Assembly: GCA_947034895.1 (NCBI GenBank)
Contig: OX344762.1
Coordinates: 32,840,760-32,904,759 of the forward strand
Direction: 5' to 3'
Origin: Rhytidiadelphus loreus
Taxonomy: Eukaryota; Streptophyta; Bryopsida; Hypnales; Hylocomiaceae
DNA length: 64,000 bases
The position numbers and the translations under genes are program-made. The notes under the pieces were generated by a model, which saw only the letters and a list, made by a program, of their open reading frames with translations, made no database searches and was not told where the DNA came from. The first letter of the stretch is position 1. Every line of letters starts with the position of its first letter. Shown one piece after another: positions 13,734-37,585 of this stretch.

Positions 13734-13744
13734 CAGGGTTGTCT
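13734..13744 (+). repeat. Left terminal inverted repeat of the giant hAT-type element
   Basis: CAGGGTTGTCT, mirrored by AGACAACCCTG at 37567-37577. It is close to the 10-bp ends CAGGGTTGAC of the 6.1-kb element at 43,965-50,091, and to the Ac-type hAT end CAGGGATGAAA. Confidence 0.7.
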
Positions 13745-13919
13745 TGTCTGACAGAATTTCGAGTTTTTGTGTCTAATAGACGTCGCATGTCGCATGTCGA
13801 ATTGTCGAGTTGTCGAGTAAGGGCGGTTTTTGTTGTCGTGTACGGATTTCGGATTTCAAATTTTTTTACCCCTTGGTAAAACGGACTGTCCTACGTGGCT
13901 ATGACGTGGCGTGCTTCCT

Positions 13920-14134
13920 GAGGGGTGACCGCGAGTAGGGGCGACCACGGGTAGGGGCGACCGCGGGTACGGGGGCGACCACGGGTAGGGGGCGACCACG
14001 GGTAGGGGGCGACCACGGGTAGGGCGACCTCGGGTCCAAAATCCTGGGCGACTGCGGGTCTGAATCTAGGGCGACCGCGGGTCTGAAATCCAGGGCGACT
14101 GCGGGTCCAAAATCCAGGGCGACCGCGGGTCCTA
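13920..14134 (-). repeat. Left subterminal array of the ACCCGNNGTCGCCC repeat
   Basis: About a dozen imperfect units read GGGCGACCGCGGGT or GGGCGACCACGGGT on the plus strand, spaced 15-30 bp. The array begins about 190 bp inside the left terminus and is inverted relative to the right subterminal array at 37,205-37,412. Such multiple subterminal motifs are typical transposase-binding sites in hAT elements. Confidence 0.75.
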
Positions 14135-14656
14135 CTTCATGGGCTACAAGTCTGGGGCCCCCACAACATTTTTTTTCCAATATTTATTCTTCAACCAACA
14201 CATTCCACGGCAAATTGGCAATATATAAGCATTGAATTATATGCTCGGTACATACCAAAGCAAATGAACATGCATTATGTAATGATATATCATGGGACAA
14301 TCAATTCATAAGCCTAAAACATAATAATAATAAAAACCTTGGACAATAATCATATTAATTTAAATGGAACTGCGTACATACCTACGGATGATCTTCACAA
14401 TTGAGTACCAAGACCACTCCTGTTTGAAATTGTACACTTATTTGCAAAAAATACGAATACCTTCATTAATCATCATCGTCAACACCAAAGTACCTTTTAC
14501 AATCTTCCTGACTTTGTAAAGCCAAGTGATGGACTACACAAAATTCAAAATCTACCTATTTCATTACAAGCTTTGGCAACAAATCTTCACTACAAGGCAT
14601 TGATGTTAAATCCTTATAGTACTATTTGAAGGCCTCCACATCTATAATGCAACACA
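14135..14656. other. AT-rich 3' flank of the hAT transposase gene
   Basis: AT-rich sequence between the subterminal array and the stop codon of the minus-strand transposase frame. No gene or repeat recognised; it probably holds the 3' untranslated region and polyadenylation signals. Confidence 0.45.
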
Positions 14657-17600
14657 TTACATTGTGAAGGTAGAATCGCTTTCCACTTCATCTGCATTGG
14701 GGTCGGTGTCTTCATGTGGCCCACTACTGTCACTAGCTCCTGAGACCTCGTTTTCATCATCCTCTCTGCTTGTAGGTTGAAGGATCACCTCACGTTCCAC
14801 CTCAGAGTTCAAATTTCGCACTTGCGTTTCTAAACCACCAACAACTTCGGCTAGCACTAATCGCTTTGTCGGCCTCGATGCATCAGTGGTTCCATTGATA
14901 ATAGGGCCTGTCGGTCGCTCAAGCACCTGCTGCCCAACATGTTGACGCTCTGCTCTCGCTGCTGCGCTTGATGGCCAAGGATTACGAGTGGAATTTCGTT
15001 CTCCAATGACAAATGGATGGATCGCATGGTTTTGACGCTTGGGGTTCCGTGTCAGTCTGTCTTGCGTCTTGCGGGTTCGTTTATTTCCTGATTTGGAGTG
15101 TTCACGCGATCGCCTGGATGATTCTCCAGGGCCTGACATCAACGAGGCCGGAGTAGGTTGTGGAGCTGAGCCATGCACTCCTTCATCAACGATTTGTCGT
15201 AGATCATTATGTGTCAGCGACCTTGTTAGAGGAGTTGGTACTATCCTCGATGTTGTGGCAATGTCTACACTTGCAGGGCGATTAGACCCACGGGTACGGG
15301 TCTCGTTGAATACCACTTGCAATGGCGCATCTGAATCGTACACCCTAGTTTCTGTTGCAGTGTTGTTGGACGGTGCTAAACTTGGACGAACTGCAGGTAC
15401 CTCTTCAATATGCGACACCTCTTCTTGCCTTTCACCCTGTACATTAACTCGTGCACCACTTCGGAGGTTCATTGGCATACTAGGCGGCAGACATGTGGCA
15501 ATTGGAGACCTTACAAGCTCCACTTCATCTGCCACTGGAATATCTGCACCGTCATTGTTGTCATCAGGAGTTCTTTCCCTCGTTGGATCTGCATTGATTA
15601 CCGGAAATGCATCCCAAGCCGACACATGAGGGGCTTCGTCTCTGCGGTGGTGCGACACCTCTGGAGAGCTCAGTCCATCATCATCACCCACAAAAGTGTT
15701 GTGGTATCGTCCTCGTGGAGGACTACCTACACGGGGCACCATACCAGCCCACCTATTTCCACGGAGGCGTTCTTCTACTACCACACGTCTTTGTTCTTCT
15801 CTCAAATCTCTAAACCTAACTTCATCTTCGTCCCCCGAAGAATATGGTTCCTCATTCTCTTCATCTGTATCTCCATCTACAAGGTACTTTTCGTAGAATA
15901 GTGCTGGATTGTGTCCTTGTTTTTCACGTTCCAATTTGCTGTTGGTGTAGATATACACCAACATCTCAGCCTTCTTTGTGGCTAGGCGATTACGCACTTT
16001 ATCGTGTACAAACGAATACATGCTCCAGTTTCTTTCACAAGATGATGCTGAGCATGTCAGAGACAAAACTCTCCTTGCTATTTTTGGAAGAGCGTTCCCA
16101 CCCACACGATTCCACCATTGATGAGGCAACAAGTTACATCGAGTAACATCTGGAGCCTCTTGTAATGGATCAAAGGGACCCGACTTCTCTTCAAATTCCG
16201 TCAACTCAGCAATTGCTTCATCTTCATCCACATTCAATGGTCCGCTCAATTTTCTGATGACTCAATTCAATGCCCGCTTTGCCTCTCCATTGTTATGAAG
16301 CTCTTCCACATCTGTCAAATACGGGTTCAACAATGCCCCTGCATAATGGAGGTCCGTGCGCATCAACTTCCAACGAGCATCAAATTGTTTTAGGAACTTC
16401 GTCGCGGTCTGCTCATCAAGAAAGAACGGAGCCTCCTTTAAAGTGCACACGTGCTGACGAAGGCTACTCATTATTATCCAAGCTTTCGGCATCGCCGGTA
16501 TTTTGCCATCGAACTGGCGCAGAGCAAGAATCACTGGAAGAACCATGTGCTAGAAATTACCGCATTCCACCCAAAACACTTTCGAAACTATGTCCTCTCG
16601 CGCTTTACGGGCCCGCTCTCTTGTAATGAGTCCGTTTGTTCTGCTGACCAAACTATTCTCAAATGGCATATACGTCTCTTCCCCCACCACGAATTGAAGC
16701 GCTTGTTTGCACTCTACCAAACGGTCTATCATGAGAAAATGCACTGCGAAGCGTGTGGCCGCAGGAAGTCTCAATGACTTCTTCGGCGAGTACTTACGGA
16801 AAAGACCCAAAGTCAAGTGGTATTTCTTTATAAACTTCACAATTGCCCTGGCCTTATCCACTAGATCTTTGATCCTTTTTTCCTTTCCCCAGTCTTCCAA
16901 AAGTAAGTCCAATATATGTGCGGCACATCCTTGCGTATACATGTGGGGATACCTTGCTTGCAACTCGCGCATTGACCCTGTCATTACGGAAGCATTGTCT
17001 GTACACAATTGGACAATATTTCCTGGTCCCACCTGCTCTATGTAGGTAGCCATTGTATTCACCGTATACGCCATGTCTTTCCTCTCTCCTGTGGTGTCAA
17101 CCGATCCCAGGAAGACATCACCCGCAGGGCAAACGAGCATCATATTCAACAAGGGACGGTGATTCGTATCTGACCATCCATCTGAACAGATAGTGGCTCC
17201 ATATTGGGTAATAGAACTCTTTGTTCGACTACTGACCATTTTCGTAACAGCCTCCTTCTTCACATCAAGTAGTTTAGTGCGCACCGCATTGTACGATGGC
17301 GGGGAATATGGAAATCCACATGTCAAAGTTGCTTTCACAGCATTCACAAAGGCTGGGTGCCGCACCACATTGAATGCAATGTTAGCCTCATAAAAGAAAG
17401 AAGCCCATAGTCTATCCAAGTTTTGTCTTTCATTGACCCGGAATGATTCATCCATGCTTTGTTGACGAGAAATCGAGGTTGAGCGCATCCTTCTCACCGT
17501 CACAGGAGTAGAATTCGTTGAATCTGGATTACGAGGCGGTGCATTAGGTGCTTCTGTCCTGTCGCTTGGGTCCACAGACCCTTCCACTGATGCATCCACA

Positions 17601-17944
17601 GTATACCCTGCAACGGACTCAGCAACAACATCAACCTCAAGATCTACTCCATGCATCTCCTCCAAACTCATTTCTTTTGGTACAATCCCTTCACAGTTTC
17701 TGAATAATTCGAGGACTACGGATGGAATACGTTTACAACGTTTCACTGTTGATGTACGGGGGTAACCAAAGTGACCAAATGCCCGCTTCCGCACGAAAAC
17801 TTTGTTCCAACCACAAAAAATACAAGTCCTCGTATTTGCGGAACGAGCGGGGTTTGTTTCAATAACCAACCAGGGATCCCACTCCTTTGTGGCTCTTCGA
17901 GTATCATTTATGTTCGTCCTCCTCCCCGCTCCTCGGTTTGCCAT
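14657..17944 (-). pseudogene. hAT transposase gene with two in-frame stops
   Basis: A single uninterrupted reading frame (same phase throughout) runs from ATG at 17942-17944 to 14657, broken only by TAG at 16550-16552 and TGA at 16262-16264. Order of parts: N-terminal BED-type zinc finger (CIFCGWNK, GHFGYPRT); DUF659-type catalytic region (GATICSDGWSD, VQLCTDNASVMTG, YPHMYTQGCAAHILDLLLEDWG); helical region; C-terminal hAT dimerisation domain (WWNRVGGNALPKIARRVLSL, SASSCERNWS, KVRNRLATKKAEMLVYI); then a long acidic and low-complexity tail. Both stops lie inside conserved sequence, so the gene is probably non-functional as it stands. TAG would arise from CAG and TGA from CGA by a single C-to-T change. 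It lies at the left end of the giant element and is the natural candidate for its original transposase. A TATA box and a repeat array lie upstream. Confidence 0.88.
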
Positions 17945-18171: not shown

Positions 18172-18242
18172 GTGCTTTCGGTCTTCCCTCCACAAGCTCC
18201 AAAGATGGTTTTAGGGCGCCGCTACCAAACTGTATTACACCC

Positions 18243-18520
18243 GAGGTCGCCCTACCCGATCGCTGGTCCACCTCCAGGCATATGGAGGCGCGCGCCTTTG
18301 CAGTAGTCGACTTCGGGTCACATGGTGCGAACGTGGGTCCGGCAGGCGACTTCTGGTCTGAAATAGGGCGACTTCGGGTCCAGAGAGGGCGACTTCGGGT
18401 CCCGGATGGGCGACTTCGGATCTCAGATGGGCGACTTCGAGTCCCACATGGGCGACTTCGGGTTTCATGGGAGACTTCGAGTGCCATGGGCGACCTCGGG
18501 GGAAAGAAGGGCGACTTCAT
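18243..18520 (-). repeat. ACCCGNNGTCGCCC array upstream of the hAT transposase gene
   Basis: About ten units, mostly GGGCGACTTCGGGT on the plus strand (ACCCGAAGTCGCCC in gene direction), spaced about 20-25 bp. The array lies 300-575 bp upstream of the start codon. Confidence 0.8.
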
Positions 18521-18540
18521 GTGCATAAAGATTAACTTAA

Positions 18541-18900
18541 CCCCTAAAGGACCATTGTCCCCTCAAGGGACAATATGGATTTTGGGCAGGTTCCTATGAT
18601 CTCAATTTTTAATGAATTTTTTGGAAACTATCTCATAATATACAAGAGCTTATTACCTTTATGGGAATATAAATTTTGTTGCAATTGGTACCCGGGATTC
18701 CGGGAACAAAAGTTATGGCATCTTTAACATAATTTGTAAAGAACGTCTCAGGGCAGAAAAAGAAATCTACAAGAATTTGAAATTAATTTTTTAATTTTTT
18801 TCTTCTTAAAGGTCATATTTTTGTCTACATGTGTAGCTTTGATTCATTCCATTTCGATTAGTAATGTGAAAGTTATGAACAATATTGTTTGGCAAGCAAT
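18541..18900 (+). mobile_element. Partial TTAA-flanked miniature element
   Basis: Preceded by TTAA (18537-18540), it starts CCCCTAAAGGACCATTGTCCC and continues similar to the complete element at 60,475-61,589, including the shared GCTTTGATTCATTCCATTT block. I did not find a matching right end, so this copy is truncated or diverged. Confidence 0.6.
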
Positions 18901-19708
18901 CAAAATGAAATGATTCAAAGTTTTTCACATAGATATAAATCATAAGAAATTAAGAACCAATTTCAATATCAATTTTGTTATTGGAAATGCCTTGTCATTT
19001 GTGAAGAATATCATTAATTTTTCGGGGGACCAACTGAATGCTAAGTATTGAAAACTACTTATCATACAAAAACATTTGAACCACGTAGTGAGAAGTTCTA
19101 AAATTGGGTAGGCTTCGAATTTAATCCTTTAAAAAATGTTGTGCCAAAGGAGATACTACAAATTTTATTCATGTTTCCCTTCTAAATATCACTATGATGC
19201 CAAAACAAACTATTTCACTCCTTACGGGTTTAGGATTTAGGAATATCTTCAAATCTATAGTAAACTTTATTTATTTTCACATCGTAGGAAGATCTTGCAA
19301 TTGATGTACATGGCAAACTAGAAATTGTATGAAGTTGTTCAAATATAAATAATTGTTTGGATGTTCGGTATGAATTTCTTAAAAAGACAATGGTATTATT
19401 ACATTGTTGGTATTTTGTGTAAATGAAAGCACAAAAGTCTACGTAGAAAACTGACCTACAAGTCTACAACACATGCAATAAATGTATTTGACATGTGTCT
19501 AATCATCAAGAATTAGATCTTCAAAACACATAAAGGCTAATTCATATAGGAATATTTATATATCTTTATTGAAGAAACAAAACATGGACCCCATTGTACA
19601 ACATGAGGTGGTTCTAAAGGTCAAAGCAACCCTTCCGATACACACAAGTTTAGAAAAACAACTACCTATTAGTCTATTATTTACTAGAAGACTACCTCTA
19701 GCCCAAAA
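18901..19708. other. AT-rich spacer
   Basis: No gene recognised. It probably includes the 3' untranslated region of the downstream minus-strand gene, and perhaps a diverged remainder of the miniature element starting at 18541. Confidence 0.4.
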
Positions 19709-21286
19709 TCATGCAACATCCATATTGGCCTCCTCTTCCCTTTTCTTCTTCATGACTTCAAGCTCATGGGCCGCAATTCTATAAGCACTCTTCAAAAGGG
19801 GTAGGTCATGGTTCCACATCTTGTTTTTTATCCAAAAATTCTTGAACATTCTCGCACAACCGATGTGTGCAGTCTGGAAATCTATGTGCTTTTGAAACTG
19901 GTGTTTAAGCTTCTTCAAAGAAACTAACTTTTGCTTCAAGGAAGCTACCTCTGATGTCAGCACACAATGCTCTTCATCTACTAATAATGCATCCAAAGCC
20001 ATTGGAAGGTCAATGGGGCCTACAACCGTGGTTTCTTTTAGGTCATTCAACCTTGACTGCGCCTCTTCCATAGCTTTCCTTTCGGTATTCAATCGGTTTT
20101 CTTCTGCCAAACACTCTTCCATTATTTTGGCCATTCGTTTATCCAAGAACGGGGTGGAATTTGAGGTAGAGCCTCCATCTTTGCCTTTATTGAATTTCAA
20201 ATAAAATTGCTCCAGCTCGTCCATTTCCTTTTGTTGAACTGAAAAACGAACTTTCCCACTTATGATTAGTGCTTCAAGGGTGTGCTCATCGTTGTCCTCA
20301 ATGTCACCACCAGTGCGTTCACGTTGCCTTTCACATTCCATTCCTATTTCTACCAGTCTACCAAGAATAGCCTTCAACTGGGCTTTATAAGCTTCTTTTC
20401 CTTGCCTCCTCGTGTCTTCAAGATATAATACTTCCCTTCCTGCTTCTTGAAGAGGTAGTTCTTCACATGAATCAAAAATCACCAATGCTTGTTCAGCATC
20501 TCGTTGCAACCCGATCTCGCCCTCCTCCTTGTCTTCCTCCATTTCTCGCATGCGTGCATATACATGTTGAAGAACTTCGTCTTCCTCAGGATGACGGAAG
20601 TGCATTGGCTCCAACGATCTAAGAGGCGCGACATGCAATACTACTGCCCCTTCTGAGTCTCCAACAAAAGGTACCACCGCTGCCATATTTTCTTCAAGTA
20701 TTGGATCTTCATTTGGGGGCATAGGGTCTGCAATGTCTTCTTCATCCGAGTCGGTGGAGGTGGACGACTGGCCCCAATCGTAGTCTTCATCCGACACTTC
20801 TTCTTTGAAATGTTTTTTGGGCCCTAATCCATCCCTCGGATTATTTGATGGATCCGCCCTTGGAATGTCTTTGGTAGTGGGAACTATGCTATTGGGGGTT
20901 TTCTTAATGGTCCTCCAATCCACAGTTCGTCGCAATTGTAGCTCTGCATAGACCATTTGGCATATACCAAATGAAACTTGACTCCCCTTCACTGTTGGTT
21001 TTTGATATAATGTCCGGTAAACTTCGATGCACCGTTGCACAAATGCATCATCTCTGCAGTAGTGAAGATTAGCATTGTTTTGGCTGATATGGACATCGTG
21101 CCGGAAGTAAGGGAATAGCTTATCGATATGGCACCACCCTACGTAGGCCTTGCAAGTGTTGAACGTCCAATCCGATTGCACGTTTTGCCAATTTGGAAAT
21201 GCCCTTGCTGTTGGGTCCAAAAGGATGGCTACATTCTGACTATGGCGCTCTCCTTTCTTCTTTGCCTTCTTAAAGGGGGGGGCCAT
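19709..21286 (-). CDS. Coiled-coil protein of the WCHI(D/N)KLFP family (family member 2)
   Basis: Intact single-exon gene of 525 codons, ATG at 21284-21286. A Lys-rich start is followed by a conserved helical domain, residues about 17-125: AILLDPTARAF, WCHIDKLFPYFRH at 51-63, RCIEVYRTLYQK, MVYAELQLRRTVDW to 124. Next come an acidic Ser/Asp-rich linker (about 165-200) and long coiled coils to the end. There is no zinc finger at the C-terminus. The N-terminal domain is shared with the genes at 30,830 and 36,766, and less clearly with those at 11.8 and 40.3 kb. I do not recognise the family and assign no function. A 1.6-kb intact frame inside a transposon implies recent activity or selection. 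Confidence 0.75.
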   Translation of the reverse strand: MAPPFKKAKKKGERHSQNVAILLDPTARAFPNWQNVQSDWTFNTCKAYVGWCHIDKLFPYFRHDVHISQNNANLHYCRDDAFVQRCIEVYRTLYQKPTVKGSQVSFGICQMVYAELQLRRTVDWRTIKKTPNSIVPTTKDIPRADPSNNPRDGLGPKKHFKEEVSDEDYDWGQSSTSTDSDEEDIADPMPPNEDPILEENMAAVVPFVGDSEGAVVLHVAPLRSLEPMHFRHPEEDEVLQHVYARMREMEEDKEEGEIGLQRDAEQALVIFDSCEELPLQEAGREVLYLEDTRRQGKEAYKAQLKAILGRLVEIGMECERQRERTGGDIEDNDEHTLEALIISGKVRFSVQQKEMDELEQFYLKFNKGKDGGSTSNSTPFLDKRMAKIMEECLAEENRLNTERKAMEEAQSRLNDLKETTVVGPIDLPMALDALLVDEEHCVLTSEVASLKQKLVSLKKLKHQFQKHIDFQTAHIGCARMFKNFWIKNKMWNHDLPLLKSAYRIAAHELEVMKKKREEEANMDVA

Positions 21287-21464: not shown

Positions 21465-21672
21465 CCGTGGCGACCGCATTTGTACCCGAAGTCGCCTTGG
21501 GCGCATGTGGGATCAGGGTTTAGGGGGGCGAGTGCGTTAAGTGGGGCGACCGCGGGTCCAGGAAGGGCGCGTGCAACTTCAGGGCGACCGCGGGTGGGGC
21601 GACCGTGGGTCTTGGAAGGGCGACCGCGGGTCTTGGAAGGGCGACTGCGGGTAGGGCGACCGCGGGTCCAGG
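21465..21672 (-). repeat. ACCCGNNGTCGCCC array upstream of family member 2
   Basis: Units of GGGCGACCGCGGGT and relatives on the plus strand (ACCCGCGGTCGCCC in gene direction), 180-390 bp upstream of the ATG. The orientation relative to the gene is the same as for the other cargo genes. Confidence 0.75.
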
Positions 21673-22970
21673 GAAAGGTAGCAGACTCAGGAAATGGACA
21701 GGGAGAATTGACCCCCTCATTGCTCCCGTCAACTTAGATTTGAAAAAAAAGCCCCCTATATTCTGCCAATTTTTGGGTAATTCTTGCATCTCCTAGAAGT
21801 AATTTGGGGCCTCTGATTGCAAATATGATTTCAAAATTCCCAAAAAAATTAAGCAGTGCAAATAATAAATTCTAGGGCAAGCCCTGGATGGGCAATGAGG
21901 GAGTCAATTCACCCTGGCCCTCACAAATGGCTCATCTCAAGACTGATCTCCCTTTTTCATGTATTTACTTCAATGAAAATATTTTTAGATCATTTTTCAG
22001 ACAAAGAAAAATAAAAGAGGAATCTAACACAAGTGATTTCATTTTTTTTAAGTATTTTTTAATTAATTGTAAATTTCCAAAGGACTTGTGTCATAGGTCC
22101 CTACTTATGCCCCTAGGTCTCCCGTAAAACGTTCACTTGCAACTTCTAAAGAAAAATGGGGAAGTAAAGAGAATGAATTGGCTTTTACAATTGATAATTT
22201 TTTTTTCTCGAATCATTTAATGATTATGGAGGTCAATTTATGAACTACAGTTTGTCCATTTCAAAGCCACTTATAGAGTCCATTTTTAATGCCCACTCCA
22301 TTTTAGAGCCTTCTACCTTATATTTACTTTCACATCCTCACAAATGGAGAAAGGAAGTACAATTTATGTATCAATGAATAGGTGGTAGTAAAATCGTGGG
22401 CCACCGCAATTAAATAGCTTAACATGTAATGAGTTTAATAGCTTTTTCAAGTGATATTAAGTTTTGGAAGAGAACATTTTAGTGTGCCAATATAATTTGT
22501 AGTTCTTCATTTCAACTCCAATCCCAAATTTATTTTTATAAGCAATACACTCAACCATGAAAAAGTAAATTTGGTAGATTATCATCTCACAACTCTTATC
22601 CAATATTGCACCTTCAGAAAACGTGCATACTAATACACAAGCTAATTAAACATTCCTATGGTTAGGTTCTTGTTTCATAAAACTTGCTTCAATGGAAATA
22701 ACTATAAGTCCATGCTCTTTTCATAAAGGAAAAATACAGTTGGAAAGGCATAGGCACTTAGGGGTTCATTAGTAATGCATTCTAATTGTTAAGCTAAACT
22801 TATCTTTTGACTCTAAATAGATTATGCAAACACCCCTCTTCTAAAATCAAATTTCATTCGCAAGTACATCTTCGTCATTGTCCATAATGACGAACAATTC
22901 TAATTAAATAATGATTTAGCACAAGTGAATTCTAAAATACTCTATATCATTACAAATTAGTTACTTTAAA

Positions 22971-23280
22971 GTTTCAAAAATTCCCGTAAAGACCTCGGTC
23001 TAGGCCAGGTGTCGTGCTTCGAAGGTTTGACCAAAGACCTTCTCGACCTCCACAGTGAGATGTTTTCTATCTCACTGCGGAGGTCGAAGAGGTCCTTGAC
23101 CGAACCCATAAGCCCAAACCAGAACCTCGTACATCATGTACACCGGGTTGGAAATCAAACCGTAGACCTCCCAGACTCCACTTGAATTCGAAGAAGTTGA
23201 CCCTTGTCTGAGAATCCCTTCCACTACTTCACCTTCTCGTTGGTCACATCGGGAATCACCTTCGATGCACCACTCCTTGT
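22971..23280 (-). repeat. SINE-like unit with hairpin, copy 1
   Basis: Read on the minus strand: an A-box-like TAGTGGAAGGG, a degraded B-box-like GGTTTGATTTC, then a hairpin (arms about 23,035-23,066 and 23,074-23,106), then a T5 run near 22,978. The stem core GACCTCCACAGTGAGAT pairs with ATCTCACTGCGGAGGTC (one mismatch). Homologous to the copies at 24.65 and 28.7 kb, but with a different stem sequence. Confidence 0.5.
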
Positions 23281-23369
23281 CCATTCCATCTTTATTCATT
23301 TTTTTCTTTGATTCTACGGGGCTTCAAAATACCATCAGCCGCCCAACAAAAATTAGTCTCCCCATTTTG

Positions 23370-23625
23370 GACCCGAAGTCGCCCCACCCGAAGTCGCCCC
23401 ACCCGAAGTCGCCCCACCCGAAGTCGCCTTACCCGAGGTCGCCCAAGTCCCAGAAAAGAGGGAAGCAAAAATGCGTGAGTTTTTCCCTCCTCTCTGGACC
23501 CACGGTCGCCCCACCCGAAGTCGCCCTACCCGCAATCACCCCAGCCGTGGTCGCCCTAGCACCGCTGAAGGAAGTCCCCAATTTCCCCCTTCTCTGGACC
23601 CGCGGTCGCCCCACCCGCGGTCGCC
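23370..23625 (+). repeat. ACCCGNNGTCGCCC array, no downstream gene
   Basis: Four close units of CCCGAAGTCGCCCCA at 23,370-23,430, then more widely spaced ACCCG(A/C)(A/G)GTCGCCC units. It reads in the forward direction, but no gene follows on the plus strand. It is the inverted counterpart of the array at 28,440-28,676. Confidence 0.8.
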
Positions 23626-24640
23626 CCTACATCAGTATTTGAAAGAGTCATCTAGAGAACATTGCTGTCATCAATGGTAGGTGAGATCATAGAATATTTT
23701 CTACATAGCTTACAATTATAACACATGATCATTTTATTAAATGGTCCCTAACAAGGCTTCAATATCCTCAAGCCCTACAGTCATAAACTCCAAACCTTAC
23801 AAAGCCCTCGCAAACTAGAACCCATACCCAAACCTAAACCCTTGAATGCCCAACCCATTTTAGGATGTTTTATGAATGTGCTTTAACATCAACAAGAAGC
23901 CAACATTTTGAATTATAGAATCAATTTCTTTGTACTTCTTCATTTTTCCTCCAATGCCAAAAAACTTTATTTGTGCAAATTATCAAATTGTTGTGGAGGG
24001 GGATAATACACTTGAAGTAAAAAATGTACATTTCTCTTATTCTCTTGTTATAATCTTACAACACTTACGCAATTTTGCACTCAAAATTAACGTGCACACT
24101 AACAAGCAAGTTCTTTAAACATTCATACGGTTAGATTCAAAAATAAATAGGAAACTTGCTTCAATGGAAATTACTATAAGTCCATGCTTTTTTTTAATAG
24201 GACAAATACAAGAGGGAAAGGCTTAGGCACGTAGGGCCTAATTAGTAATGCACTCTAATAGTTAAGTTAAATTTATCTTTTGACACTAAATAGATTATGC
24301 AAACATCCTTCTTGTAAAATCAAATTTCATTTACAAGTATTTATTCATCATTGTCCATAAAAATGAACAATTCTAATTAATTAAAATTTTAGCACAATTG
24401 AATTCTAAAATACTCTATATCATTATGAATTAGTTACTTTAAAGTTTCAAAAAATCCCATGAAGACCTGAGTATAGGCTAGGTGATGTACTTTGTGGATT
24501 GGGCGAAGGACCACTTTGAAATGAGAAGTGAAATGTTTGTCATTGTCCATAAAAATGAACAATTCTAATTAATTAAAGATTTAGCACAATTGAATTCTAA
24601 AATATTCTATATCATTACAAATTAGTTACTTTAAAGTTTC

Positions 24641-24950
24641 AAAAAATCCCGTGAAGACCTCGGTCTAGGCCACGCGACATGCTTCGAGGATTGGGCCAAG
24701 GACAACTTCGAATTTAGAAGTGAGATGTTTGTCATCTCACTTCTGAACTCGAAGTGGTCCTTGATCGAACCTATAAACCAAACCGGAACCTCGTACATCA
24801 TATACACCGAGGTTGGGAATCGAACCACAGACCTCCTAGACTCCACTTGAGTTTGAAGAAGTCGACCCTTGTGTGAGAATCCCTTCCACTACTTCACCTT
24901 CCCGTTGGTCACATCGGGAATCACCTTTGATGCACCACTCCTTGTCCATC
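24641..24950 (-). repeat. SINE-like unit with hairpin, copy 2
   Basis: Read on the minus strand: A-box-like TAGTGGAAGGG (24,885-24,895 region), perfect B-box GGTTCGATTCC (near 24,815-24,825), a hairpin with 31-bp arms and only three mismatches (about 24,694-24,762, loop TTTGT), then GGGATTTTTTG, a T6 run like an RNA polymerase III terminator. A broken copy with only one hairpin arm lies at about 24,505-24,540. Confidence 0.55.
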
Positions 24951-25037
24951 CCATTTTTATTTTTATTTTTTCTTTGATTGTACGGGTCTTCAAAACACCA
25001 TGAGCCGCCCAACACAAATTAATCTCCCAGTTTTGGA

Positions 25038-28304: not shown

Positions 28305-28676
28305 AATGCGGGTGGGGCGACCGCTTAAGTACCCGCGGTCGCCATAGGGGCGCGTGCGGGTAAGGGCGACCGCGGGTACCAAAGCGGTCCTGAAACCTGA
28401 ACCCGAGGTCGCCCCCTACACCCGAGGTCACCCTGGAACTTGGGACTTCCAGCTTTTTTGGTGCTGGGGCGACCTCGACTGGGGCGACTTCGGGTAGGCG
28501 ACTTCGGGTGGGCGACTTCGGGTGGGGCGACCGTGGGTCCAGAAGTCGTGGAAAATTCATGCATTTGTAATCCTCTTTGGGGGATTGGGCGACTTCGGGT
28601 GGGGCGACTTCGGGTGGGGCTATGGAGCCGTGGGGCGATTGGGAGACTATTTTGTGTTGGGCGACTTCGGGTATTT
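28305..28676 (-). repeat. ACCCGNNGTCGCCC array upstream of the kinase gene
   Basis: The gene-proximal part (28,305-28,440) has units in both directions; the distal part (28,470-28,676) reads GGGCGACTTCGGGT on the plus strand, i.e. ACCCGAAGTCGCCC in gene direction. The array starts about 160 bp upstream of the ATG. Confidence 0.8.
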
Positions 28677-30130
28677 TGAAGCCAATAGAATCAAAGAAAA
28701 AAATGAATAAAAATGGGATGGACAAGGAGTGGTGCATCAAAGGTGATTCCCGATGTGACCAACAGGAAGGTGAAGTAGTGGAAGGGATTCTTACACAAGG
28801 GTCAACTTCTTCGAACTCAAGTGGAGTCTGGGAGGTCTGCGGTTCGATTCCCAACTCCGTGTGCATGATGTAGGAGGTTATAGTTGGGTCTTACGGGTTC
28901 AGTCAAGGGGCACTTTGAATTTCGCACTGAGATGAAAAACATTTCAGTGCGAAATTCGAAGTGCCCCTTGGCTCAATCCTCGAAGCACGTCGCGTGGCCT
29001 ATACCGAGGTCTTCACGGGATTTTTTGAAACTTTAAAGTATCTAATTCGTAATGATATAGAGTATTTTAGAATTCAATTGTGCTAAATCTTTATTTAATT
29101 AGAATTGTTCGTCATTAGGGACAATGACGAATAAATACTTGTGAATGAAATTTGATTTTACAATACGGGGTGTTTGCTTAATCTATGTAGGGTCAAAAGA
29201 TAAGTTTAACTTAACAATTAGAGTGCATTACTAATAAAGTCCTAAGTGCCTTAAGCCTTTCCCCCTTGTATTTTTCCTATGAAAATTGAGCATGGACTTA
29301 TAGTAATTGCCATTGAAGCAAGTTTTATAACCCGAAAATCTAACCGTATGAATGTTTAATTAGCTTGTGTATTAGTATGCACGTTTCCTTTGAGTGCAAA
29401 ATTGGATAAGAGTTGTGAGATGATAACCAAGAAAATTTTCATTTTCTTTATTGATTGTATTGCTTATAAAAGAAAATTGGGATTGAAGGTGAAATGAAGA
29501 ACTACAAATTATATTGGCACTCTAAAATGTTCTCTTCCAAAACTTAATATCACTTGAATAGCTATTAAACTCATTACAGGTTGGGAATATTTTTAATTCT
29601 AGTGGCCCACGATTTCACTACCACCTATTCATTGATACATAAATTTTTTTGCTCAGGCAAGGGTGTGCATTGAAGCATTTGACACTCAAGGAAACACTAT
29701 CGTAAATATTTTTTTAGTTGGGGAGTTTCTCCAAATCCGACGTCCATTGGATTTTAAAGAGGGTTCCTTTCTCCATTTGTGTGGATGTGAAAGTAAAGAT
29801 AAGGTAGAAGACTTTGAAATGGAGCGGGCATTAATAATGGACTCTATAAGTGGCTTTGAAATGGACAATTTGTAGTTCATAAATTGACCTCCATAATCAT
29901 TAAATGATTCGAGAAAAAAAAATTATGAATTGTAAGAGCCAATCCATTATCTTTACTTTCCCATTTATGTTTAGAAGTTGCAAGTGAACATTTTGCGGAA
30001 GACCTAGGGGCATAAATAGGGACCTATGACAGAAGTCCTTTGGAAATTTATAAGTAATTATAAAATACTTCCAAAAATATGAAACCACTTGTGTTAGATT
30101 CCTCTTTTATTTGTCTTTGTCTGAAAAATC
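28440..30130 (-). repeat. Right arm of large internal inverted repeat
   Basis: Reverse-complement counterpart of about 21,992-23,640, carrying array, SINE-like unit, hairpin and AT-rich part. At 30,131 it runs directly into another 14-mer array that serves as the upstream region of family member 3. Confidence 0.75.
28730..29025 (+). repeat. SINE-like unit with hairpin, copy 3
   Basis: A-box-like TAGTGGAAGGG near 28,776-28,786, perfect B-box GGTTCGATTCC near 28,842-28,852, then a long hairpin at about 28,903-28,975 (5' arm core CACTTTGAATTTCGCACTG, 3' arm core CAGTGCGAAATTCGAAGTG), then a T6 run (GGGATTTTTTG) at about 29,017-29,023. The layout matches an RNA polymerase III unit with internal promoter, hairpin body and oligo-T terminator. 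Not a canonical tRNA: no acceptor stem or anticodon arm can be drawn. Confidence 0.55.
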
Positions 30131-30470
30131 ACCCGAAGTCGCCCAGGGACCCGCACCCGAAGTCGTCCAGGGACCCGCACCCGAAGTCGCCTAGGGACCC
30201 GCACCCGAAGTCGCCCAGGGACCCGCACCCGAAGTCGCCCAGGGACCCGCACCCGAAGTCGCCCAGGGACCCGCACCCGAAGTCGCCCAGGGATCCGCAC
30301 CCGAAGTCGCCCAGGGATCCGCACCCGAAGTCGCCCAGGGATCCGCACCCGAAGTCGCCCAGGGACCCGCACCCGCGGTCGCCTTGTAGACCCGTGGTCA
30401 CCTGGGTACCCGCAGTCGCCCTTGTTCGGTCGGGGGACCCGCACTCGCCCTACTTGGAGGATCCGCACTC
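30131..30470 (+). repeat. ACCCGNNGTCGCCC array upstream of family member 3
   Basis: The most regular array in the window: about ten head-to-tail 24-bp units (ACCCGAAGTCGCCC followed by AGGGACCCGC), then diverged units to 30,470. It ends about 360 bp upstream of the ATG of the plus-strand gene. The uniform units suggest recent expansion. Confidence 0.9.
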
Positions 30471-30829: not shown

Positions 30830-32323
30830 ATGGAGCGTACGACCTCGCCATCTCATCCTACCATACCTACTCCATTGACTCCACAAGAAAAAAGGGCGAT
30901 GAAGGACAAGGGTCGAAAACGGTCAGGCAAGAAGCACAAGAAGCGCGTGGCCATATTACTTCATCCGAAGATTAAGGCTTTTAAGGGTTGGAGGGATGAA
31001 CCAGAGCCTTGGAGTAACCGGACTGTTGCGAAGTATGTGGATTGGTGCCACATCAACAAGTTATTTCCGTTGTGTCGTCACCTTTTGCACGTTCAAAACC
31101 AAAAGGTTAACCTTGCGTATGCTACGGACACAAGGTTCATGCGTAGATGCTGCGAAGTATGGACCCTTCTATATTTGGAGACCAAGGTGTACAGAAACGA
31201 TAATTTCAGTTTCTTTCTTGTACGAATGGTGTATGCCGAAGTTGTTTTGAAGAAGGTAGTCGATTGGACAACACTCCCAGAAATGCCTATTGCGGTCCGT
31301 CCGGACCAAAAAGAGTGGGAGGAAGCCTCCAACTTGTGGGCAAAGTATCCTCTTGATATAAGCAAGATGATGACACCGATTAAGCGTGGAGCATCATTTG
31401 TTGCTGATGAAGAAGTAGTTTGGTCTTCCACTTCTTCCTCGGACGAGCACACCCATGAGTACAACGGATATTCCTTCTCTAGCGATGATGAAGATGTTTT
31501 TGTCACCGAGTCCAAGAAGTCTTTGGATGTGGGCCTTCAGAAGAAGAAAGATCGTGGAAAAGAGCCCATTACCTCAACCAGCCATGAAGAAGTCTTGGAA
31601 AAAGTTGACCCCATGGAAGTGGAGGACTTTTCCACAGAGGAGTGTGCGATGCTAGAAGGTGATAGTGATTCATCAGACAATGAGGAGACCTTGATTGCCA
31701 AAATCAAGAGTGCACGTTTATCATTGAGTACAAAGAGTGAGGAACTGAAGAATTTGAAGGAACGTGAAGTGTCTTCTCCCACTGAAGCTTATTTGAAGCA
31801 ACAATTGAGGTCTCTCAACCAAATACTCAAAGAGAGAGATGACGATTTTGTTGCTTTTAAGAAGAATGGAGACCAATATTTAACTAAGCAGAGCACCGGG
31901 AAATTGTCGCAAGCTGACCATTGTTTATTGTGGGAATCAAAATTAGAAACCCTGCAACGCAGACGTAGGAAAGCAGAGAATGAACGGCGAGCACTGCGTG
32001 TTCAAATTACCGAAGAAGAAAAGAAATATTACGAAGCGGCCAAAAAACATGTCAAGGAGGTGGACGTTTTGGCAACGGCCTCGACATACGGTAATCTTCC
32101 AGAGGAGTTAGAAATGCTTCGGAATTTGGTGAAGTTCCATGAGACTAGAGTACAAGTGTTGGAAGACGAGTTTGTGGATCTGAGAGCCGAAAGCGAGTAT
32201 TATACGCAGTGGATGAAGTGGATGAAGGATACAACGGGAAAGAGAGGTGAAGAATACGAGAAAGTGGGTCCTCCTCCTAATATGAGTGACTTCCTAAACC
32301 AAAAAGAGGTTTTTAGAAAGTAG
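30830..32323 (+). CDS. Coiled-coil protein of the WCHI(D/N)KLFP family (family member 3)
   Basis: Intact single-exon gene of 497 codons from ATG at 30830. Lys/Arg-rich start (KGRKRSGKKHKKR, a likely nuclear localisation signal), then the family domain at residues about 39-146: AILLHPKIKAFKGW, WCHINKLFPLCRH from 72, RCCEVWTLLYLE, MVYAEVVLKKVVDW. An acidic Ser-rich middle (about 205-310) and long coiled coils follow to the end; there is no zinc finger. It is the closest match in this window to family member 4 at 34-37 kb and is about as long as family member 2. Function unknown. A strongly regular 14-mer array lies upstream, in the same relative orientation as for the other genes. Confidence 0.75.
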   Translation: MERTTSPSHPTIPTPLTPQEKRAMKDKGRKRSGKKHKKRVAILLHPKIKAFKGWRDEPEPWSNRTVAKYVDWCHINKLFPLCRHLLHVQNQKVNLAYATDTRFMRRCCEVWTLLYLETKVYRNDNFSFFLVRMVYAEVVLKKVVDWTTLPEMPIAVRPDQKEWEEASNLWAKYPLDISKMMTPIKRGASFVADEEVVWSSTSSSDEHTHEYNGYSFSSDDEDVFVTESKKSLDVGLQKKKDRGKEPITSTSHEEVLEKVDPMEVEDFSTEECAMLEGDSDSSDNEETLIAKIKSARLSLSTKSEELKNLKEREVSSPTEAYLKQQLRSLNQILKERDDDFVAFKKNGDQYLTKQSTGKLSQADHCLLWESKLETLQRRRRKAENERRALRVQITEEEKKYYEAAKKHVKEVDVLATASTYGNLPEELEMLRNLVKFHETRVQVLEDEFVDLRAESEYYTQWMKWMKDTTGKRGEEYEKVGPPPNMSDFLNQKEVFRK

Positions 32324-32650: not shown

Positions 32651-33726
32651 TAGCCCTAAAGACCTAACCCTCTACAGTTAAAATAACCAATTGCTTCTTT
32701 TTCTAGCTAATTTCCATCGCTACTTACATGGCTTGGTGAATTTTCAAATGATTCCAATAGGTTTTTTCCATTTCCAGTGTTTTTCTAAACCCATAAAGTC
32801 CGAAGGCCATTTTTAGGTGAAGAAAAAATCAAAACTGTTATTTCTATAATTCTATTGTGTTTGTCCAAAGAAAAAACTTAACTTTTGTGGAACTGAAGCT
32901 GAGGATCTTGAACTTCACTTGTTTAAGATTTTGTGGTTAAAATTGTACGATGTTTGACTGTACAGATTTAGAGATATGAGCATTCAAAGTTGAAGAAGCA
33001 ATTTTTTTGCAACACTGGACTACACTTTCAAACGACTTTGATTGCTATTTCTTCCAAAAATGTGCACTATGGAATTTTAATTTAAAATTTATTGTGTTGA
33101 AGAATTGAGTTGGGAGTGTAGGAAAAAAAATTCAAAAAATAATAACTTCCTTTTCATACTTCAAAAAATTGTCAAGTAGAAGTAGATCCAAGGTTAAAAG
33201 AAAAACTAAATTGATAATAGCTCTTACATGGAATTGGAACACAATAATCCGTTAGTTCCAACGGTGAGATTGTTGTAGGAAGCAAACTTCTCCTTTAAAA
33301 TAAACTAATTAGAGAAAATTTGAAAATTGCATTTTCAAATGAATTCTATAAGTTATTTTTTGAAATATTTGTTTACATTGCCTTAAAAAGAACAGGGTTC
33401 TTAACTTGCACATCACTAATGAAAATGGAATGAATGAAATCTTTTTATGTAGACAAAAACATAATGTTAGCAAAAACATGAACAAAATTAAATCTATTTT
33501 GGATTTTTGCAATGTTTTTTGTACTGCCTGCCGAGTTTAGTTCTAAGTATTTTGTGGCGTAACTTTTGCTTCCGGACACCAATTGAAATAAAAATTATAT
33601 TCCCTCAAAGCTTATCAGATTTTCTCTTTTCACAAAAAATTTCAAAAAATTAGGGTACAATTTCAACCCATAGAAACTTGCCCAAATTCCAAATTGTCTC
33701 TAGAGGGGACAATGGGACTTAAGGGG
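32651..33726 (-). mobile_element. TTAA-type miniature element, inverted and diverged copy
   Basis: Starts CCCTAAAGACC at about 32,651 and ends GGGACAATGGGACTTAAGGGG at 33,726. In reverse complement it is collinear with the element at 60,475-61,589: the block ATCTTAAACAAGTGAAGTTC and the end-proximal GGAACAATT-like and GGACACC-like stretches occur in the same order. Length (about 1.08 kb) also agrees. It carries no coding region. It lies inside the giant element, so it inserted after that element formed, or moved with it. Confidence 0.5.
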
Positions 33727-34285
33727 TTCATCATGTTCACTTTTTCTGTTTATGGAACTAAAATGATAACAATTACAATCTTCCATGAAATGAATTGAGA
33801 TAATGAGATTGCTTACAATGATATACAATTTTGAATTCTAAGTAATAAAATTTAAAGTTTACAGTTGAATTAATTTTAGAAGCTTAAATGTCAATGCAAA
33901 TGACAATGTCAAAGTGAACTTCAACTTTAATAGCTCTTTGATAATAAGCTTCATACAATCAGTTGTACCACATATTTGATTTTGTTCGAACATAGTGAAG
34001 TCTTTGGAGTAGAAAATAATGTAGAATATGTTTCAAAAATGAAGGCACTGTAATATTCTCGGTAATATTGCAATACAAATGTGTAGCATACAATCATAGA
34101 AGGCTCGAAGTTGGCCTATGTGGAACAAAACAAAAAGACTGAGAGCTACACGCTTCTACCATATATAATACGCTTCTATATACTAGGGGTTTGACATTAT
34201 ATATCCTTGGACGTAAACCAAGTAACCAAAGGAGAAATGAAGTCCATCATTAAATTCTCAGACGTCAAATCCATTTGGATTGTTT
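33727..34285. other. AT-rich spacer
   Basis: No gene recognised. A short duplication around TACGCTTCTA(C/T)...ATATATAATACGCTTC lies near 34,148-34,175. Confidence 0.4.
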
Positions 34286-36766
34286 TTACTTCTTAGAAGA
34301 ACTTGCTTCACCATGTGAAGGTTGAAGTGCCTCTTGAAGGACTATCTTCTTCTTTGCACGAGTTCGTGAAGTTGGCCCTTTCGCATTCAAAATGAATTCC
34401 AGGACGTTGGAATCTTGGAGAGCTTGTAGGGTCCTTGTGGTTTGTGGAGAATGTGCTTCCACAAGATAGTCCAATGCTTGACTTTGGTAATAAGGTCCAT
34501 ACGTAGAGTCCATGCAAGCCATGTTAGTCATGTCTTCAAGAGAGGCAAATTGATTGCGATCGGGTCCCCTTTTACCTTCATTATCCCAACGGTGTCCTTC
34601 CGGATGAGGACCCCATTTGAATTCTCCCGAGCTCTTCTCGAAGTATCCACCAAGGCATTGGTAGAAGAATGCCCTTCTCCCTTCATTGTGTGGACCTTTT
34701 CCCATCAACTTCGGTGCCACTTTGACAATCTCCGCCGGGTCAGTTTCCCAGTTCAATTGAGAGCTACTAGGTGCCTTTTCATCATCATGTAGCCCTTGAC
34801 GCTAGCTCCAAACGAGGTCACGACCCCACAGTGTCGTATTAGTCGTCGTTTCAACGCTATGTTCCCAAGAAGGTGGCATGTATGTCATCAAGTTGAACAT
34901 GGCATACAAGCGATTATGGAATGGTGCTGAACAAAGTACACAACGTCGTCTAATGAGGCATCCCATAAGGAGGCATTGAGGATGGTACACATGTGCACAT
35001 GACCCGAGAGCCCAACCACCTTCAGGGCCAAATTGCTCTTGACAAATGGGGCATTTTGTATGGTCGAGTACGAAAGCTGCAGGTTGTGGCCATAGTAGCT
35101 TTTGGTCCTTCACCTCCATGTGACTAGACATTTGCTTTGCATGGTCCTAGCCCTGTTGTGCCCAATCTATAATATTTGTGTCTGCCAACATCGGCATGTT
35201 TTCAGGAAACATGTCATCTAAGAGTGCCCAGGATGTGAGTCCATTCTCACGTTTAGGTAAAGCTGCAACAAAATTCTTTGAAACCTTATCTAATTCCTTG
35301 GCTATTTGCTGTGATCTGTCCACGGAGAGAATGCACGCCACCTTCCAATGGTAGTACGTGGCAACCAATTGATCCAACCGTTGTTGAAGCTTTTCGTTCT
35401 GCTTTTCAAGGTCTCTTTCTTTGTCACTCTGCCTTGATTGTTGAACTGTTGGAAATGAGAGTGAATCTTGGGTCCCATGAATATCGTTCGTGTCAGTGGT
35501 CGTGTCTCCGCCAATCGTAGTGAGGAACGCACTTCGATTATTTTGCAAAACCTTAGCACGCTTGGAAGGTGGTGGATGGCAAGGAACATCGTTGGTAAGG
35601 TCCCCCACAACTTTGTATAGATGATGTGGATCATGGTCAACAAAAGCCTCATCCATATCTAACAAAGTAAAAGCGCCAGCCTGATTTTCTCGCAGGGCTT
35701 GAAGCTCGGTAGATTGTCGTGCAATGAGAGCATCTTTCAGTTGGCACTGTCCTTGCAATTTCTTCAAGTCACTTTCCAATGAAGCAATCTTGTTGTCTTT
35801 GATCTGTATGAGGTTTTGAGCCTTTGCTAGGGTCAGAGTGTTGTGACCTACATCCACTCGGGATTGAAGAGTTGGTGCACCAACAATTGTTTCACTGGGC
35901 CCTTCATCGTTGCAACTGAATTCGAAGACATCACTTGGGTTCTGTGCAGGCAATGGTGGATTCGAAGCTGATGGAGAAGCCCCTTGTGGTCCAATTCGTG
36001 TAGTGGAACGTCGCACTCTTGACGATTGTCCCGATTTACGTCCCCGTGATATTCCGACGCCGTGGACAATTTCATTCTGATTTGGGGGGAGGCCGATAGG
36101 TAGTTCCGTGGCTCGTTCTACCCAAAGCACCCGCGTACCATCTGAATTGTCATCCTCTTCTGATGACTCTGTGTCAATTTCAACCTGGGCCTGATTCCTA
36201 GGAACACTTCGAAAAGGACCCAATCCACCCTCTGGAAAAAGGAGAATTCCTTTTGGTATGCACCCGTCCTCTGGACGGGTTACATGAGGACTAGATTTGA
36301 TCGTGCTCCAATCGACTTCTTTCTTCAATGCCACTTCAGCATAGGCTCCTCTGGCAAGGAAAAGAGGGGCCTCATTCCTTTCTACAGAGGCCGTATTGTA
36401 GAGAGCTTGCTACAATTCAATGCACCTGTTCACGAATATTTCATTCTCACAGAACTTCAAGTTCGCCTTGTTGGTGTGTCGATGATGATGATGACGCCAT
36501 GCTGAAAAGAACTTGCTGATGTGGCACCACTCAATGTAATCTTCGCAAGTTTGTATTGACCATGGCTCAGGCTCCTCGTTCCACCCCTTGAAAGCAATGT
36601 GGTCAGCACTATTCAACACATGCAATCGCTTTCGGTGACAAGTACCCCTACGCTTCCGTTCCTTGTCTTTTTGAATCTTTCGCAATCCCAAACCACGACG
36701 TGGACGTGGAGCCGGTGGAGGGGCTTCAGCAAGAAATTCTCCAGTGGTATTGTCTCCACTAGCCAT
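34286..36766 (-). pseudogene. RING-H2 coiled-coil protein of the WCHI(D/N)KLFP family with three in-frame TAG codons (family member 4)
   Basis: One reading frame runs from ATG at 36764-36766 to 34286, broken only by TAG at 36410-36412, 35147-35149 and 34802-34804. Order of parts: Pro/Arg-rich start; family domain (AFKGWNEEPEPW, WCHISKFFSAWRH, then NRCIEL-stop-QALYNT and GAYAEVALKKEVDW); acidic linker; coiled coil; a textbook RING-H2 finger (CPIC, 14 residues, CAHVYHPQC, 10 residues, CVLC); then a C-terminal region ending in basic residues. The first stop splits the conserved domain, so it is a mutation rather than a true end. Each TAG can derive from CAG by one C-to-T change. RING-H2 fingers are usually E3 ubiquitin ligase modules. 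Its layout suggests that members 2 and 3 lost the finger. Array and TATA box lie upstream. Confidence 0.8.
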
Positions 36767-36957
36767 GGTGGGTTGTTGAAATGAAGGTCCTAAAAAATGT
36801 AGAGGGATTGTTGAAATCAAACCACTAGAAAAAGAACCTTGGATGAAAGTAGTCAATAGTAAATTTTCAACACCAAATGCTTATGCATGTAGCCAGAAAG
36901 GGATACAAGCCAAGAAGCCTTAGTGATGAACATGGGAGAATGAAGATTCGGCAACTT

Positions 36958-36968
36958 CATATATAGGC
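36958..36968 (-). promoter_or_regulatory. TATA box of family member 4
   Basis: CTATATATGAAG on the minus strand, about 195 bp upstream of the ATG, and directly downstream of the 14-mer array in gene direction. Confidence 0.45.
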
Positions 36969-36969
36969 G

Positions 36970-37195
36970 AACCCGGGTGTGGATGCAAAATGGGCGCGTG
37001 CGGGTCACGTAGGCGACCAACGGTTCTGGAGGGGCGACCAGCGGTCTTGGGGGGGCGACTGCGGGTCCTGGAGGGGCGACCGCGGGTTCTGGAGGGGTGA
37101 CCGCGGGTCCTGGGGGGGCGCGTGCAAGTGACGAAGGGCGAGTGCAGGTCTTGGATGAGGGCAAGTGTGCCGACGGGTGCGGGTATCGGCGACCA
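36970..37195 (-). repeat. ACCCGNNGTCGCCC array upstream of family member 4
   Basis: Units such as GGGCGACTGCGGGTC and GGGCGACCGCGGGTT on the plus strand (ACCCGCGGTCGCCC in gene direction), 205-430 bp upstream of the ATG. It meets the oppositely oriented right subterminal array at about 37,200, giving a large palindrome-like junction. Confidence 0.8.
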
Positions 37196-37204
37196 CGACC
37201 TAGT

Positions 37205-37412
37205 ACCCGTGTTCGCCTAAGACCTGTAGTCGCCCCATACCTACAGTCGCCCCTATCCGAAGTCACCCCGGACCCGCGGTCGCCTCACACCCGAAGTCGC
37301 CCCCACCCGAAGTCGCCCCCACCCGAAGTCGCCCCCACCCGAAGTCGCCCCACCCGAAGTCGCCCTCACTCGAGGTCGCCCCACTCGAAGTCGCCCTCAC
37401 CCGAGGTCGCCC
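37205..37412 (+). repeat. Right subterminal array of the ACCCGNNGTCGCCC repeat
   Basis: About eleven units, mostly ACCCGAAGTCGCCCC with a period of 15-18 bp. It ends about 165 bp inside the right terminus and is inverted relative to the left subterminal array at 13,920-14,134. Confidence 0.85.
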
Positions 37413-37566
37413 TACATTTGCCACGCGGCTGCCTCATGGCAGCCAGGTAAGCCTAGGTAAATGGGGGGTAAATTCCAGAAAAGTCAAAGGGTAAAGTTGA
37501 CTCTATTAGACGGACGGGACCCTCTACTAGACGTCTTCGACGTCGAGTTTGTCGAGTTGTCCGGGT

Positions 37567-37577
37567 AGACAACCCTG
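37567..37577 (-). repeat. Right terminal inverted repeat of the giant hAT-type element
   Basis: AGACAACCCTG, the exact reverse complement of 13734-13744, followed by CATGGGAG (7 of 8 matches to the left flank CATGGAAG). Confidence 0.7.
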
Positions 37578-37585
37578 CATGGGAG

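Follow-up and report, generated by a model that had tools for sequence, protein, structure and literature searches.

A hAT-type transposon family of Rhytidiadelphus loreus that carries a kinase gene and three coiled-coil genes

The element in the window and its genes

We analyzed a stretch of 64,000 nucleotides of the Rhytidiadelphus loreus genome (assembly GCA_947034895.1, contig OX344762.1, positions 32,840,760 to 32,904,759), here called the window, which contains a hAT-type transposon with five genes: a transposase, a protein kinase and three paralogous coiled-coil genes (CC1, CC2 and CC3), one of them with a RING finger (Table 1). A preliminary description of this DNA had proposed that everything between the two ends of the element travels as one unit. 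Five collinear copies with the same gene order and with duplications at different sites bear this out, and the element is one mobile hAT unit.

The ends and flanks are as that description gave them. Each strand of the window has a single copy of the 11-bp terminal inverted repeat CAGGGTTGTCT (13,734 and 37,567-37,577), and the flanking octamers agree at 7 of 8 positions. An 11-bp inverted pair with octamers matching at 7 or 8 of 8 positions is not rare on its own (0.48 expected per window simulated with a first-order Markov model). The real window has exactly two pairs of at least 9 bp that start with CAGGG and have octamer flanks matching to that degree, and none of 60 simulated windows has one. 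In the 407 Mb of genome searched (C1 to C5 being 94.4, 89.9, 84.8, 75.1 and 50.7 Mb), CAGGGTTGTCT occurs 1,353 times, against 67 for a reversed control pattern. The inverted repeats of hAT elements range from 5 to 27 bp (PMC12506042).

The transposase gene indeed lies just inside the left end, ending 923 bp from the tip, and its product has both the DUF659 core (PF04937, 124.3 bits against a cut-off of 34.7) and the C-terminal hAT dimerization domain (Dimer_Tnp_hAT, PF05699, 31.0 against 21.4), as scored on a frame translated with X at its two stops. Pfam gave no BED zinc finger in this protein, whose N terminus is Cys-rich by eye only. The kinase, predicted to be atypical, scores 57.1 bits with Pkinase (cut-off, 31.7) in an open frame; His-Asn-Asp and Asp-Trp-Gly stand where the usual kinase motifs differ, and the catalytic residues are kept, with K267, E284 and D405 invariant and D381 conserved in at least 90% of 30 sequences. 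When a structural model of the protein was searched with Foldseek, all 50 matches listed were kinases, with template modeling scores of 0.53 to 0.65 by target and about 0.35 by query; the protein has the features of the eukaryotic protein kinase fold, with the catalytic Lys, Glu and Asp residues and the metal-binding Asp in a kinase domain. CC1, CC2 and CC3 have a common N-terminal domain (31 to 46% identity), and the RING finger of CC3 reaches 22.9 bits with zf-RING_2, under the cut-off of 27.3. The hairpin units of the earlier account are present as repeated and inverted spacer units.

Two further coiled-coil genes lie outside the element, at 11839-13317 and 40275-41750. They are 25% identical to each other over 449 amino acids and at best marginally similar to CC2; the second has a weak RING match. 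The element also contains two pieces (Table 1) of a dispersed repeat family whose inverted ends resemble TTAACCCCTAAAGGACC; further pieces lie at 60471-61594 and 39692-39860.

Table 1. Coordinates of the hAT element, its parts and its sister element (window positions unless C1 is named)
Feature	Position	Strand	Details
hAT element of the window	13,734-37,577		11-bp inverted ends, 7/8 octamer duplication, transposase with both hAT Pfam domains
Left target-site duplication	13726..13733		CATGGAAG; 7/8 identical to right flank
Left terminal inverted repeat	13734..13744	+	CAGGGTTGTCT; end type L1; continues TTGTCTGACAGAATT
Left subterminal array	13921..14132	+	motif GGCGACYNCGGGT, forward
hAT transposase	14657..17944	-	1,095 codons in one frame, 2 in-frame stops; DUF659, Dimer_Tnp_hAT
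Array upstream of transposase start	18239..18518
Dispersed repeat family, piece	18534..18919	+	TTAACCCCTAAAGGACC end; in blocks collinear with other copies
CC1, coiled-coil gene	19709..21286	-	525 amino acids, open frame
Array upstream of CC1	21484..21667
Spacer repeat units	21992..25756		reverse arrays within, at 23371-23627 and 25037-25301
Octamer at empty site of sister insertion	25419..25426		carried by the window; 1 of 8 letters differs
Protein kinase	26552..28147	-	531 amino acids, open frame; Lys267, Glu284, His-Asn-Asp 379-381, Asp-Trp-Gly 405-407
Array upstream of kinase	28331..28672
Inverted copy of spacer unit	28435..30129	-	about 2.4 kb extra here in four other copies
Array upstream of CC2	30130..30420	-
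CC2, coiled-coil gene	30830..32323	+	497 amino acids, open frame
Dispersed repeat family, second copy	32780..33728	-	in blocks collinear with other copies
CC3, coiled-coil plus RING gene	34286..36769	-	827 codons in one frame, 3 in-frame stops
Array upstream of CC3 (forward)	37054..37412		merges into right subterminal array (reverse)
Right terminal inverted repeat	37567..37577	-	CAGGGTTGTCT; end type R1; continues ACCCGGACAACTCG
Right target-site duplication	37578..37585		CATGGGAG
Sister element	C1:1815347-1830729		15,383 bp, within a family-1 copy; duplication TTGTTAGG, perfect

Copies, linkage and movement as a unit

Does the same unit stand elsewhere in the genome? Facing ends were paired by eye among the first 100 listed places of CAGGGTTGTCT, all on C1, which covers part of the possible pairs; 8 end pairs were taken in full and 10 pairings, two with an end in common, at their ends only. 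The preliminary description proposed a search for copies sharing these ends and this gene order, and its outcome was positive. Four full copies lie at C1:1528804-1555252, C1:1703411-1729504, C1:14706050-14731977 and C1:21264259-21290344 (below, copies 1528, 1703, 14706 and 21264). They measure 25,928 to 26,449 bp, each has a perfect and different 8-bp duplication, and all have the genes in the order of the window (transposase, CC1, kinase, CC2, CC3-RING) at 86 to 99% amino acid identity per matched stretch. Counted from blocks longer than 300 nucleotides and above 85% identity, the four line up collinearly with the window copy; nucleotide identity is mostly 95 to 97%, and 87 to 94% in some array or spacer blocks. 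The size of 23.8 kb first reported is true of the window copy but not of these four (25.9 to 26.4 kb), compared with which the window is without about 2.4 kb of spacer near 28.5-29.3 kb.

The ends of this family (family 1), which show minor variants, follow a rule: the transposase side has type L1 (CAGGGTTGTCTTGTCTGACAGAATT) and the CC3 side type R1 (CAGGGTTGTCTACCCGGACAACTCG). The octamer duplication is perfect in 10 of 12 L1-R1 pairs, a count that includes the window and minor variants; the window matches at 7 of 8 positions, and the pair at C1:6112327 is mismatched at 3 of 8; a pair with more diverged ends, at C1:2163010, matches at 7 of 8. Pairs with other end combinations serve as a built-in control, and their octamers match in 0 of 6. 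Three larger L1-R1 pairs, of 29.6, 39.5 and 39.7 kb, have perfect duplications, and among the matches listed, kinase and CC2 fall inside the first and CC2 inside the second.

A second line of evidence comes from a distant sister element that is itself inserted in a family-1 copy. Its transposase is in two frame pieces, 35% and 46% identical to that of family 1, with Dimer_Tnp_hAT above the cut-off and DUF659 split. Its kinase is 30% identical over 462 amino acids (longest open piece, 298 amino acids), with Pkinase above the cut-off, and its coiled-coil/RING protein is open over 744 amino acids, 30% identical to CC3 over 366 amino acids, with zf-RING_2 at 28.5 bits, above the cut-off. When the flanks of the sister element are joined with one octamer, 399 to 400 of the resulting 400 bases align to each of the five family-1 copies, that of the window among them, at 93 to 97% identity and with at most 15 gap columns. 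In the two alignments inspected the junction is unbroken: gaps in the window alignment lie at least 127 bases away, and the sole gap of the best alignment lies 18 bases away. Because the empty site of this sister insertion, as distinct from that of the window element, is matched in all five family-1 copies, this is a case of a hAT element that moved together with its kinase and CC-RING genes as a single unit.

Could the two hAT ends nevertheless enclose, by chance, a transposase, a kinase and coiled-coil genes that belong to separate, nested or neighboring transposons? Pieces of the dispersed repeat family occur in the region, and nesting is known here, as the sister element demonstrates. In addition, 2 of the 8 fully read pairs have unmatched octamers and genes of more than one lineage inside. 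At C1:26224877, a diverged transposase (57% identity), CC1 (39%), kinase (52%) and CC2 (43%) stand together beside a second transposase (42 to 43%), and the outer octamers there do not match. Against chance enclosure stand the five collinear copies at different sites, by which we judge it refuted, and the finding that no further CAGGG-type end pair was found inside the window copy.

The linkage of the genes across the genome also speaks against it. The searches covered top scorers only, namely, the best 81 of 1,358 kinase candidates scored (window included) and the best 86 of 2,344 CC2 candidates. All 81 kinases are full length at 98 to 100% identity, and among the matches listed, CC2 lies divergently upstream of 52 of them (the window and C1:21264259 included), against 0.2 under random placement. 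In 47 of these pairs the lower coordinates are a near-constant 6.36 to 6.82 kb apart, which leaves some 5 kb from gene to gene; in the remaining five the distance is 4.1, 4.3, 6.0, 7.9 and 16.7 kb. Blind 1-kb probes, placed 9.5 to 10.5 kb downstream of the kinase beside 20 of the 29 kinases that have no CC2 among the matches listed, hit the transposase in 16 cases (95.9 to 98.5% identity). The pattern that would speak for separate origins, with transposase, kinase and coiled-coil genes in elements with ends of their own, was not seen here, and we consider the chance enclosure of unrelated genes very improbable.

Some kinase copies form inverted pairs 36 to 56 kb apart (C1:86278158/86313805, C2:39455853/39511464, C3:70929102/70976667 and C4:74892520/74928157). 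In the first three, the two members of a pair have the same kinase scores and the same CC2 scores and stops, which points to large inverted duplications or to artifacts of assembly.

Relatives in public data number 76 for the kinase (27 to 61% identity) and 12 for CC2, each among the matches listed, and 33 for the transposase, best candidates only. In other species, relatives of the kinase and the transposase were found on metagenomic contigs of an equal size, 15,563, and relatives of the kinase and a coiled-coil protein on contigs of 6,460. In jittered simulations, the chance of a size match is 0.1 to 0.2% for kinase and transposase above 10 kb and 0.4 to 0.5% for kinase and coiled-coil protein above 5 kb; for a match of any size, it is 7 to 8% and 22 to 27%, respectively. 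The equal sizes suggest that the kinase may be linked with the transposase and with a coiled-coil gene elsewhere as well. They were rejected as contig-level proof: the two 6,460-base contigs come from different sources, which speaks against one contig, and a further kinase and coiled-coil size match, at 2,045, is of the chance kind. Among the viral contigs scanned, no relative was confirmed. A scan of genome contigs gave 19 loci in bacterial records (best segments at 24 to 79% identity, many short), which we read as ordinary bacterial kinases.

Arrays at the tips and upstream of the genes

The mirrored subterminal arrays of the preliminary description are real, and all 62 copies of the motif GGCGACYNCGGGT in the window lie within the element, with 0 in the remaining 40 kb. 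In family 1, all five start codons have an array 184 to 410 bp upstream, and the two tips have arrays in mirror image. With a limit of 450 bp, chosen after the distances had been seen, 158 rotations out of 20,000 put arrays upstream of all five genes, as did 9 random placements out of 20,000. The sister element, in which family-1 array motifs number 0, has a motif of its own (GGACGG, 85 copies) in tandem arrays at both tips and upstream of the kinase, whose start we infer from the alignment, and of the CC-RING gene; its left tip array is also upstream of its transposase. This comparison concerns layout only and carries no statistics.

Three derivatives (6.8 to 7.4 kb) are flanked by perfect duplications and have kept the ends, an inner array and motifs close to each tip. 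Each has a 114-amino-acid kinase remnant (36 to 37% identical), and none of the other four family-1 genes was found in them.

What might the arrays do? By analogy with Hermes (PMC10368747), we infer that they are recognition sites of the transposase. The mechanism we prefer, at about even odds, is that they would also tie the five promoters together as a single regulon, perhaps one directed against silencing in the way of the VANC anti-silencing proteins of VANDALs (PMC10398659). A different account holds that the arrays are structural satellites or silencing targets, that is, GC-rich tandem repeats spread by replication slippage rather than binding sites. Tandem arrays expand easily, and two more arrays (23371-23627 and 25037-25301) are situated in spacer repeats, with no start codon next to them. 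Slippage alone does not sit well with arrays that are mirrored at both ends and stand before every gene, that are kept near both ends of the three non-autonomous derivatives, and whose places are taken by another motif in the sister element. We regard the satellite account as unlikely, although it deserves some weight.

A second hAT-type element lies in the window at 43965-50091 (6,127 bp, ends CAGGGTTGAC, perfect duplication ACTGTACT). It contains a large fold-back and arrays of the GGACGG type, and no open reading frame of at least 120 amino acids is listed for it; its array motif resembles that of the sister element, and otherwise only a telomere-like repeat matched.

Decay, possible roles and context

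The window copy is defective. Stops were counted in five copies (window, 1528, 1703, 14706 and 21264, in this order): 2, 3, 3, 1 and 5 in the transposase; 0, 0, 0, 1 and 0 in CC1; none in any kinase; 0, 0, 2, 1 and 0 in CC2; and 3, 2, 2, 0 and 3 in CC3. Some copies also have insertions or deletions, including one deletion in the kinase of copy 1528. Copies 1528 and 1703, at different sites, have two CC3 stops and one transposase stop in common, which suggests that already broken copies may have moved in trans.

Are the kinase and coiled-coil genes, then, captured host genes that hitchhike and decay without a function for the element? Plant transposons often carry pieces of host genes, the transposase, CC2 and CC3 have stops in many copies, and the ratio of nonsynonymous to synonymous substitution (dN/dS) of CC1 is high, as given below. 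Set against this passenger account are several points. The same three gene types recur in the sister element, whose transposase pieces are so diverged, and every gene has an array of its own. The kinase frame is free of internal stops in 64 of 81 copies, a proportion biased by the choice of the best 81 of 1,358 candidates. Metagenomic relatives of the kinase and the transposase, and of the kinase and a coiled-coil protein, occur on contigs of equal size. We consider the passenger account improbable.

The observations are best explained overall by a hAT family of about 26 kb that moves as a single five-gene unit, with inferred roles for the arrays and accessory genes, and we put the probability of this reading at about 0.88. 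Besides the copies, the linkage and the sister element, the pooled dN/dS values (0.41 to 0.87) and the kinase without stops in all five copies count in its favor, as signs that the genes are retained. In this model, the hAT transposase would cut at the CAGGGTTGTCT tips and recognize the element by its GGGCGAC(Y)NCGGGT arrays. Such arrays also precede each gene, and we therefore propose that the protein that binds them, be it the transposase or a CC protein, may also control the element's own promoters, such that one element-specific DNA-binding protein would serve transposition plus promoter control or anti-silencing. The kinase and the CC/RING proteins would be accessory functions of the element, modulating transposition or host silencing, and not chance host cargo; the kinase is a candidate modifier of the transposase, of CC proteins or of host factors. 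Defective copies such as that of the window would move in trans.

Several points weigh against the model of a self-regulated five-gene unit. At least one transposase stop is present in all five family-1 copies sampled, with no intact transposase seen, and the sister element's transposase and kinase are also in pieces; since the transposases are broken in all copies sampled, no autonomous copy is shown. Another transposase stop is common to the window and copy 1703, and stops that seem to be shared by descent could therefore also stem from recurrent mutation or exchange. The pooled dN/dS values (transposase, 0.55; CC1, 0.87; kinase, 0.56; CC2, 0.41; CC3, 0.47; dS, 0.015 to 0.030) come without a significance test, and that of CC1 is near neutral. 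The pairs of 29.6, 39.5 and 39.7 kb are known from their ends only. Among the top-scoring matches, 29 of 81 kinases have no CC2, and 4 of 20 probes missed the transposase, three of them matching none of the five genes and one giving a 36-amino-acid CC3-like match.

A wider form of the proposal is that these elements represent an undescribed multigene hAT clade, in which transposase, kinase and CC/RING genes would be an old co-inherited module, the family-specific array motif would be both the transposase-binding end and a shared promoter element, and kinase and RING proteins would be a self-encoded regulatory or anti-silencing system. We advance it tentatively, at slightly less than even odds.

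How do such elements compare with known systems? hAT elements are regarded as small, usually single-gene transposons; Ac encodes one protein, and VANDALs are Mutator-type elements. Ac/Ds and further hAT elements of plants are alike in their 8-bp duplications, hAT transposase and non-autonomous derivatives, and also in their 11-bp ends and some subterminal repeats (PMC3260210), whereas Ac is 4.6 kb (PMC3260210) and the family described here has about 26 kb and five genes. The Hermes transposase, also of the hAT class, needs several subterminal repeats, read by BED domains (PMC10368747), and the arrays here are comparable. The repeats described for Hermes are close to the tips (PMC10368747), whereas long arrays here also stand before each gene and Pfam detected no BED domain in the transposase. 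VANDALs resemble our elements in having element-specific tandem repeats of a short motif in noncoding regions, with motifs that differ between related families (PMC10398659). The transposase here is of the hAT and not the Mutator type, and the likeness to VANDALs concerns the arrays. ToxhAT (ToxTA) of wheat-pathogenic fungi is a 14-kb cargo-bearing DNA transposon once filed as hAT, but it has a TA duplication and 74-bp ends, and its authors in 2025 refile it as likely non-autonomous Tc1/Mariner (PMC12506042). Starships are likewise large eukaryotic elements that carry cargo and have their transposase gene at one edge, but they are fungal and use a tyrosine recombinase; no Pfam match to such a captain (DUF3435) was found in the five genes. 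The statement that no hAT element with such cargo has been described agrees with a literature search, based on listings of papers, that found none with this gene set.

Movement of a whole gene set as a unit is unusual for the hAT class. If our reading is correct, a high-copy hAT family that keeps kinase and RING/coiled-coil genes would mean that plant cut-and-paste transposons can build multigene, possibly self-regulated genomes. With two lineages that have different motifs at corresponding array positions, the co-evolution of motif and binding protein becomes directly testable.

Elsewhere in the window, open reading frames at 4404-10052 resemble a CACTA-type transposase region, by eye only. 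An expansin gene, the strongest pointer within the DNA itself to a land-plant host, lies at 58177-59620, with Expansin_C and DPBB_1 in the open reading frame at 58177-58959 and an upstream exon seen by eye.

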